64,000 nt of DNA from assembly GCF_003057965.1 (NCBI RefSeq), contig NZ_CP020921.1:1437001-1501000 (forward strand), given 5' to 3'. This document shows positions 6,419 through 40,904 of this stretch, in pieces (within the stretch, counting starts at the first letter, position 1; each line of letters opens with the position of its first letter). A program made the translations under genes and the position numbers. The notes beneath the pieces are model-generated. The model saw only the letters and a program-made list of their open reading frames with translations. It did not search any database and had not been told where the DNA came from. Source of the DNA: Thermodesulfobium acidiphilum. GTDB taxonomy: Bacteria > Thermodesulfobiota > Thermodesulfobiia > Thermodesulfobiales > Thermodesulfobiaceae.

Positions 6419-6847
6419 CTATTTAACCAGAATTACCGGAACCTTTGCATTTTTTAAGATTGAATAAGCAACGCTACCCAGAAGTCCGGATAAAGGGTTT
6501 AGCCCTTTATTTCCAACTACAATTCTATCAATATTATTTTCTTCAACATACTTCAAAATTTCTTTCGCAGGGTCACCGCCAGATAGTAATACTGCCTTTA
6601 CATTAACTCCTGCATCATCAAAAATTTTTTTTGCTTCATTCAATTTTTTGGAAAAAGCTAAATCACAAGCTTCATTAATCTTCTCTGGATCCACAAAAAC
6701 ATCGTCACTTACATATGTCCAGTCATATGCGCAACCAACTGTAAGCAATATAACTTCAACCGATTGGTGCTCCTTTGCTAAATTTAAAGCAAATTCAGCA
6801 GCCTTCAATGAGGGCTTCGACCCGTCCACAGCAACTAAAACTTTCAT
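6419..6847 (-). CDS. universal stress protein (UspA family)
   Basis: 142 residues with the Usp alpha/beta fold: MKVLVAVDGSKPS at the N-terminus and the ATP-binding signature GNKGLNPLSGLLGSVAYSILKNAKVPVILVK (G-x2-G-x9-G-S-type) at the C-terminus, so it probably binds ATP. The ATG at 6847 follows AAGGAGG by five bases; a longer reading to 6919 would overlap the preceding gene. The gap to the upstream selenoprotein gene is 23 nt, so the two are probably co-transcribed, which points to a stress or redox setting for both. Confidence 0.92.
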   Translation of the reverse strand: MKVLVAVDGSKPSLKAAEFALNLAKEHQSVEVILLTVGCAYDWTYVSDDVFVDPEKINEACDLAFSKKLNEAKKIFDDAGVNVKAVLLSGGDPAKEILKYVEENNIDRIVVGNKGLNPLSGLLGSVAYSILKNAKVPVILVK

Positions 6848-6870: not shown

Positions 6871-7215
6871 TTAGATTTTTGCCAGATCCATTAGAAGCCT
6901 CGGATCTGGATTTATACATAAATACGGAGCCTCTGTAACATCATCATAACAAAGATCTAACACATGATCAATTTGTCCAAAGTATTTATCTGTAAGGAAA
7001 TCAATGTACACGTTTAGTTCTTCTTCCCAGAAAATCAGATCATGCTTAAATTTATTAATCTCATCTGGTAATACAATTCTTGCCTGCAAACTGCTAGGCT
7101 CTGGATCAGCTCAAGCACCACAATATTTTATAGGTGCACTAATAATGATATAAGCTGTTCCTTTTGTTCTCGCATGAATAAATTTTCTTGCTTCATCTGT
7201 TACTCTTATTTTCAC
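6871..7215 (-). CDS. small selenoprotein with CxxU motif (in-frame UGA read as selenocysteine)
   Basis: A GTG at 7215, eight bases after GGGGAG, opens a frame that meets a single UGA (7113-7111) and then stays open to a TAA at 6871. Read through, it gives 114 residues: VKIRVTDEARKFIHAR at the N-terminus, a Cys-Gly-Ala-Sec motif at 32-35, then ADPEPSS and a conserved-looking acidic tail with further cysteines (CYDD, YLCINPDPR). The Sec-containing CxxU layout suggests a redox or metal-binding role. It recalls the small CC/Se-motif and HesB-like (seleno)proteins, but I cannot confirm the family. A SECIS-like hairpin follows the UGA. It lies between phoU and uspA, and standard gene calling would give only the 72-residue C-terminal part. 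Confidence 0.75.
7082..7113 (-). promoter_or_regulatory. bacterial SECIS-like element after the UGA codon
   Basis: After the UGA (7113-7111) there are 11 nt, then GCCU, a bulged A, GCA, the loop GUU, UGC and AGGC (7099-7082). This gives 4 bp, a one-base bulge, 3 bp and a GU-containing loop. The E. coli fdhF SECIS has the same order and the same 11-nt spacing, with a bulged U instead of A. Confidence 0.7.
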
Positions 7216-7293
7216 AGCTGCATCTCCCCACATTCAAACTAAAATCTTAATTTTTTAAAATTTAACTCCCCTCACAGCCAAATTTAACTTTAG

Positions 7294-7953
7294 TTAGGGC
7301 TTCATATGCTTTACGTTCTTGCCTCTCACAATATATAACACGTCTTCAGCAATATTTGTAGCATGATCTCCCAATCTTTCAAAATGTCTGGTAATAAACA
7401 ACCAATCGATAATTCTCTCGCAATTAAAGCGTCTTTCAGTAAGTTCCTTTTTTAAATTTTGCAGGATATTGTGATAATCCTCATCTACAGCATCATCATC
7501 TTCTATTACGCTAAGAGCCATTTCTTCGTTTTTTTCAACAAGAGAAGTAATAGCGTTTCTTACCATAACTTTCACTTTCTTAGCCATATCAGGAATTTTT
7601 TGCATAAAGAGTTCAATTGGTGGATCTTTTAACAAATTTATAGCAGACACTGCAATACTTTTCGTTTCATCAGACATCCTTTCAAGATCTACGATTATTC
7701 TCATAATCATAACTATATATCTAAGATCCTTTGCTACTGGTTGATAAAGCGCCAGCATAGTCATGCACTGTTCTTCTATATCTATCTCAAGTTCATCAGT
7801 AATCTTCTCGCTTTCAATAACTTCTTGAGCTATTCTTGAATCCCTCTCTAGAATAGAAAGAATTACCAAATCTATCGCTCTCTCCACAAGAGTTGTCATT
7901 TCAAAAAGCTTTTTCGTTAATTCTCTGATCTCTATATCAAAATGTCTTTCCAA
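7294..7953 (-). CDS. phoU: phosphate uptake regulator PhoU
   Basis: 219 residues, all alpha-helical, with two PhoU repeats of about 100 residues. E/DxxxD-type metal-binding patterns are seen around DLERMSDETKSIA and FERLGDHATNIAEDV. It represses phosphate uptake and signalling when phosphate is plentiful, working through the Pst transporter. The TTG start follows GAGAGGTG by five bases. It is last in pstC-pstA-pstB-phoU, 17 nt after pstB. Confidence 0.95.
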   Translation of the reverse strand: MERHFDIEIRELTKKLFEMTTLVERAIDLVILSILERDSRIAQEVIESEKITDELEIDIEEQCMTMLALYQPVAKDLRYIVMIMRIIVDLERMSDETKSIAVSAINLLKDPPIELFMQKIPDMAKKVKVMVRNAITSLVEKNEEMALSVIEDDDAVDEDYHNILQNLKKELTERRFNCERIIDWLFITRHFERLGDHATNIAEDVLYIVRGKNVKHMKP

Positions 7954-40190: not shown

Positions 40191-40904
40191 TCAAGACTCT
40201 TTTTTTGGTTTTCTACCACAAGATTTCTCCTCATTGCAATATCCAATGATTTCACACTTTGGGCACAAAAATTCAGAAAGAAAGGGAGAAATCTCAAAAA
40301 CTCTTTTCTTGATTTCCTCAAACACTAATCTTATTTCCCATTGAGCTCTTTGACAAAGTCTGAGACTAGAAGCATGCATAAGTTCTCTGAAATTCATTGT
40401 CATCACAAGAGAGGTGTGAGCGCTATTTGGCAAAATATATCTTGCATCTTCAGCAGGTACCCCTTTAGATAACAGATCCTCATAAAGCCTTCTGCCCAAT
40501 TCCAAATAATCTCTATACTTAGTTAAAATCGAGGGATGTTTCTGAAAGGATGGAGGGAAAACATATAAATCTCCAATTTCAATTCTCTTATCAGTTCCTG
40601 ATGCTAAGGCTTTTACTCCAAATCTTGTATATCTTTGACTTTTTTGAGTAAATGAAGCAATCCTGTGTCTTACAAGTTGATGCGAACAAGACCTGGAAAT
40701 GTTTTCAATACCAAATGTAAAAGAAACGTGTTCAAAGGGCGTGTGATGTCCCATTTTATATAGCCTTTTTACCAGTTCTTGAGCCTCATCCTCTTTTAGT
40801 TCAGAATAAACGCCAAGAATAGATTTATTAGTAACCGAAACTCTTGCCCCCAGGGCAATAGCCCTGACAGGGTCTGGAGTGTTGTAAATTAGGGAAACCT
40901 TAAT
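40191..40904 (-). CDS. thyX: flavin-dependent thymidylate synthase
   Basis: 237 residues. The ThyX signature [14 protein letters not shown] (RHRxxS-x4-SxRY) is present, with the N-terminal [22 protein letters not shown] and [10 protein letters not shown]. It converts dUMP to dTMP with methylene-tetrahydrofolate, FAD and NADPH. No ATG, GTG or TTG lies before the N-terminal domain; the first ATG (40754) would delete 50 conserved residues. The start is evidently an ATT at 40904, which overlaps the rpmE stop as ATTAA and has GGGAG nine bases upstream. A cysteine-rich tail ([12 protein letters not shown]) closes the protein. Confidence 0.93.

Follow-up and report, generated by a model that had tools for sequence, protein, structure and literature searches.

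A Predicted Selenoprotein Gene Related to the CC/Se-Motif and HesB-Like Proteins in Thermodesulfobium acidiphilum

A Single UGA Within a Conserved Frame

On the minus strand of a 64,000-nucleotide stretch of Thermodesulfobium acidiphilum DNA (NZ_CP020921.1, positions 1,437,001 to 1,501,000; hereafter the window, with positions counted from its first letter), a frame of 114 codons (6871..7215) is interrupted once, by a UGA at codon 35. Is this UGA a stop, or is it read as selenocysteine (Sec), and if so what does the product do? An earlier note on this DNA proposed a small selenoprotein; the frame and single UGA that it described are borne out and can now be given a strand, which the note had left out. 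The frame opens with GTG at 7215-7213, closes with TAA at 6871 and is kept in four genomes, those of T. acidiphilum and three congeners. The UGA (7111..7113, minus strand) is TGA in all four and lies within Y-C-G-A-U-A-D-P-E-P, where the predicted Sec completes a C-G-A-U motif. The Shine-Dalgarno sequence noticed previously is a GGGGAG (7229-7224, minus strand) that lies 8 nt ahead of the start codon and is the same in all four genomes. All three congeners have ATG in place of the GTG, and a further in-frame ATG, upstream at 7233, lacks conservation; 7215 is therefore the likely start. The 72-residue C-terminal call that was expected to hide the gene is also present as a TTG frame (7089-6871), and a standard gene call would truncate the selenoprotein gene.

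The upstream neighbor is a phoU-like gene (7294..7953, minus strand), preceded by pstB, pstA and pstC, which agrees with the location downstream of pst given before; these names, and those of the ubiD-like and ubiA-like genes beyond, are presumptive, being assigned by resemblance. Directly downstream is usp (6419..6847, minus strand), which presumably encodes a universal stress protein; its ATG (6847) lies 23 nt past the selenoprotein TAA, it has an AAGGAGG of its own and it occupies the same position in the four genomes. To the extent covered by the fetched stretches, the congeners have the same order, pstC-pstA-pstB-phoU-[selenoprotein]-usp-ubiD-like-ubiA-like. A search of the interval from phoU to usp returned no terminator-like site. 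Co-transcription of the gene with its neighbors is plausible. Gene order within one genus is weak evidence for shared function, and any role read from the operon context would be a guess.

The Hairpin and Its Rarity

The putative SECIS hairpin (7082..7099, minus strand) starts 11 nt past the UGA, exactly the spacing claimed previously, and has the layout of the Escherichia coli fdhF element. Its 5′ side consists of GCCU (7099-7096), a bulged A (7095) and GCA (7094-7092), followed by the loop GUU (7091-7089) and a 3′ arm of UGC (7088-7086) and AGGC (7085-7082). The spacing, the lower stem, the single bulge, the GCA/UGC upper stem and the G at the first loop position are all shared with fdhF, whereas the hairpin here is short, with 4+3 pairs, an A bulge and a 3-nt loop; the fdhF SECIS has a U bulge and a 4-nt loop. 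A bacterial selenoprotein gene should have, at a suitable distance past its in-frame UGA, a hairpin whose apical loop contains G, and such a hairpin is present here. The folding energy of the hairpin alone (z about -2) is weak evidence by itself, and that of its 56-nt context is unremarkable and not informative (z +0.8).

How often would such a layout occur by chance? Among the 2,171 TGA triplets on both strands of the window, 6 precede an fdhF-layout hairpin (a spacing of 10-12 nt, 4+3 pairs with a single bulge and a loop that contains G), 11 have 30 or more open codons before them and 60 or more after, and a single one, codon 35, has both; since the layout was taken from the earlier finding, these counts estimate rarity and are not a blind test. 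Two further minus-strand TGAs in the window, at 40193 (253/385 open codons in frame) and 51788 (110/201), have no fdhF-type hairpin and probably mark adjacent genes that share one frame. An Rfam scan of the window returned one tRNA only; Rfam, to our knowledge, has no general family for bacterial SECIS elements. A loose SECIS-apex pattern run over the genome gave 21 matches, against 21 in a reversed control; it recovered both UGA-containing paralogues described below and missed the codon-35 gene owing to its gap settings.

Conservation and Selenocysteine Machinery

The gene is present in all three available congeners at 82-91% identity (80-88% over the searched stretch), with a single in-frame TGA at the corresponding position, so that the UGA is found in 4/4 orthologues. 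Across the four genomes most substitutions are third-position changes, on either side of the UGA; between L010 and L011, for example, changes at the three codon positions number 3, 2 and 15 before it and 7, 5 and 33 after it. The hairpin lies within a stretch of 26 nt, at +12 to +37 from the UGA (GAGCCTAGCAGTTTGCAGGCAAGAAT), over which no base varies, and no other invariant run in the gene is as long. Within this run all 6 of the 4- or 6-fold degenerate codons for conserved residues are identical, against 9/33 elsewhere (p = 0.0015), and when all degenerate codons are taken the figures are 8/9 and 37/76 (p = 0.023), both tests having been picked after the alignment was seen and drawing on few sequences, four related ones. 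At the protein level C32, U35, C89 and C100 do not vary among the four orthologues. Homologues with a normal stop at codon 35 would have spoken against the selenoprotein; the four genus members instead all keep the UGA frame and the hairpin.

Orthologues outside the genus were found neither by a profile search of 385 other genomes (one congener included), nor among the more distant genomes of the congener search, nor in a scan of genome contigs with N-terminal peptide patterns only. This last scan returned one further MAG contig of 38,695 bases, probably the same record as congener contig G002:C133, and a scan of viral contigs returned no orthologue.

The genome (1.77 Mb, one contig) encodes SelA (531.2 bits), SelB (364.7 bits) and SelD (326.1 bits), all over the curated cut-offs, and a tRNA-Sec (77.5 bits, over its cut-off) that ends 36 nt upstream of the selB match; the sel genes whose absence would have told against the earlier proposal are thus in place. 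The selD gene (G000:C1:1501951-1502874) lies about 1 kb past the window end and has one in-frame TGA of its own, in the context L-V-R-C-A-G-U. With the Sec machinery present and the UGA and an invariant hairpin found in four genomes, the earlier selenoprotein/SECIS reading is strongly supported. The frame, the UGA, the SECIS conservation and the machinery are computational observations; that codon 35 is read as Sec is, judging from the sequences, almost certain, and decoding would fall to SelB and tRNA-Sec, acting at the hairpin that follows the codon.

A Probable, Divergent Relative of the CC/Se-Motif Family

Among named families only NF041239, the CC/Se motif family (seleno)protein, is matched, with 19.9 bits (E 6e-4) for the T. 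acidiphilum protein and 23.1-24.2 bits for the three congeners, under the cut-off of 40. A CxxU motif following an N-terminal helix and strand, the feature typical of the family, is present. Similarities to NF041239 include an N-terminal I-T-x-x-A-x-x-x-I helix, C-x-x-U, a Pro after it, a V-Y strand and the Sec/Cys column. However, the match covers model positions 1-64/91 only, and about 30 further residues with Y-L-C-[IV]-N-P-D-P follow here in place of the short C-terminus there. A profile of the four orthologues matches the CC/Se relatives with 92% probability over residues 1-57, compared with 0.4% when the columns are reversed. In the alignment most members have Sec in the column of Sec35, while L029-L033 have Cys there, as in the usual Sec/Cys exchange, and not unrelated residues as the earlier note had allowed for, though this depends on gap placement, the Cys of the relatives aligning with either Sec35 or Cys32. 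A divergent, C-terminally extended relative of NF041239 is supported by these comparisons, short of proof.

Several other members of the CC/Se-motif family are encoded in the same genome. A Cys-form paralogue (G000:C1:1065489-1065764, L029; 90 bits) lies just upstream of a tRNA-like match at 1065817. Two Sec-form paralogues (L038, L040) are arranged in tandem on the minus strand, at 1747409-1747669 (over the NF041239 cut-off) and 1747731-1747970 (below it), and both have an in-frame TGA as well as a hairpin; the tandem also occurs in congener G001. All three paralogues have counterparts in congeners, and the hairpins of the UGA-containing pair have a CAGUUnG apex in common with the codon-35 hairpin. 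In a small phylum (G171 and G408-G410), CC/Se-motif proteins L035, L098 and L099 (and L100) have the TGA in a CxU context, C-T-U or C-S-U and not CxxU; past the TGA of L035, L098 and L099 stands the hairpin GGAGGUGGUCACCUCC.

Both CC/Se-motif and HesB-like selenoproteins are included in a 2026 review of prokaryotic selenoproteins, where the CC/Se motif family, predicted in Moorella, appears with CxxU (PMC13188914). The HesB-like selenoprotein of Methanococcus maripaludis has been established by labelling; its function is unclear, and its disruption left nitrogen fixation unaffected (PMC11097638). The corresponding model, TIGR01911, has no match in the T. acidiphilum genome and none for the codon-35 protein at E<1. 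Its members, like the predicted protein described here, are small selenoproteins related to HesB whose Sec falls in the region where HesB has its conserved Cys, but their motif is UxGP (PMC13188914), as opposed to CxxU. The deep-Sep deep-learning survey credits one Thermodesulfobium genome with 4 known and 0 new selenoprotein genes (PMC12013277), and the codon-35 gene could be among the four, though it need not be.

A Predicted HesB Fold and the Likely Role of Sec35

Two AlphaFold models were obtained, of moderate confidence (pLDDT 67.5 and 73.5), and the best PDB matches of both are HesB-type proteins. With the latter, the best Foldseek match in the PDB is YneR (prob 1.00, E 0.0033), followed by IscA with its [2Fe-2S] cluster (prob 0.99) and SufA (0.95-0.97), all with E-values above 0.001 and TM-scores of about 0.5; the top seven PDB matches comprise YneR, IscA, SufA, AQ_1857 and another HesB-like Fe-S protein. 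A sequence search of the PDB gave one match, dismissed as chance. The profile of the CC/Se relatives matches HesB with 76.9% probability, and its Sec/Cys column falls on the GGC cysteine of HesB. When the codon-35 protein is compared with HesB directly, by a profile of four near-redundant sequences, the match is weak (6.8%). The predicted fold, the order of its elements, a V-x-[IV]-D strand and an N-P near the C-terminus are shared with IscA/SufA/ErpA and YneR. In contrast, the protein has no match to PF01521 (HesB/IscA/SufA/ErpA), no GGCSG and no CGCG, and Sec replaces Cys. The models thus lend support, though not proof, to a HesB fold. CC/Se-motif and HesB-like selenoproteins are already known, and the gene adds a divergent variant to them; its family, previously given as unknown, narrows to a distant NF041239 relative within the HesB-like proteins.

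From the HesB-type matches and the column shared by the CC/Se and HesB profiles, we infer that Sec35 would occupy the loop of IscA Cys35, the first cluster-binding Cys of that protein, where C32-x-x-U35 may form a pair. The product would then act in selenol/thiol redox chemistry or in metal/sulfur handling, which is its most likely biochemical role. Taken as a whole, a selenoprotein gene whose UGA is decoded via SelB, tRNA-Sec and the hairpin, with a HesB-fold redox or metal/sulfur protein as its product, is the explanation that we consider probable.

How do other explanations fare? The earlier note had called the motif thioredoxin-like, and a genuine selenoprotein of thioredoxin-like or other redox type, with CxxU as a disulfide/selenenylsulfide pair and no HesB fold, would suit the resemblance of C-G-A-U to CxxC redox motifs and the treatment of CxxU/UxxC as redox motifs in the 2026 review (PMC13188914). 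In the models, however, CxxU does not precede a helix as it does in the thioredoxin fold, the protein has no match in Pfam, thioredoxin families included, and the top structural matches are all HesB-type. The likeness is therefore one of motif only, the predicted fold being HesB/IscA, and we think this alternative improbable. A true stop is far less probable still and can be largely dismissed. The standard code ends the frame at UGA and a TTG start is on offer at 7089, which would leave either a pseudogene or a pair of short ORFs, one of 34 aa and the other the 72-aa TTG call; yet both halves evolve as one frame in the four genomes around a fixed UGA and an unvarying hairpin, the TTG falls within that hairpin (loop and 3′ arm), and the genome has the full Sec machinery.

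The HesB-like predicted fold raises the question of whether the protein replaces IscA/SufA as a true A-type Fe-S carrier, with Sec35, Cys89 and Cys100 as ligands. The invariance of C32, U35, C89 and C100 would fit, as would the result that no PF01521 protein was found in the genome or its three congeners. However, 40/60 of the other genomes searched are likewise without a PF01521 match, so that no replacement is required; the reading presupposes that Cys89 and Cys100 lie near Sec35; and the C-terminal CGCG cluster ligands are absent in all four sequences, which makes a classical Fe-S cluster carrier unlikely. The protein is thus probably not such a carrier, and we give the replacement little credence. 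About as doubtful is a more specific proposal for a genus-confined HesB-fold selenoprotein, in which Sec, at the IscA Cys35 position, would serve as a metal or redox ligand in phosphate-uptake/PhoU stress signalling or in Fe-S supply, in a deep-branching genus that appears to be without ordinary A-type carriers.

Implications

The preferred reading, a HesB-fold selenoprotein with a redox or metal/sulfur role, would add a selenoprotein that falls below the cut-off of its curated family and would connect the CC/Se-motif selenoproteins, themselves uncharacterised, with the HesB fold. One small genome has several paralogues of this family side by side, in Sec and in Cys form, and the role of Sec at the IscA Cys35 position would become testable with small soluble proteins.
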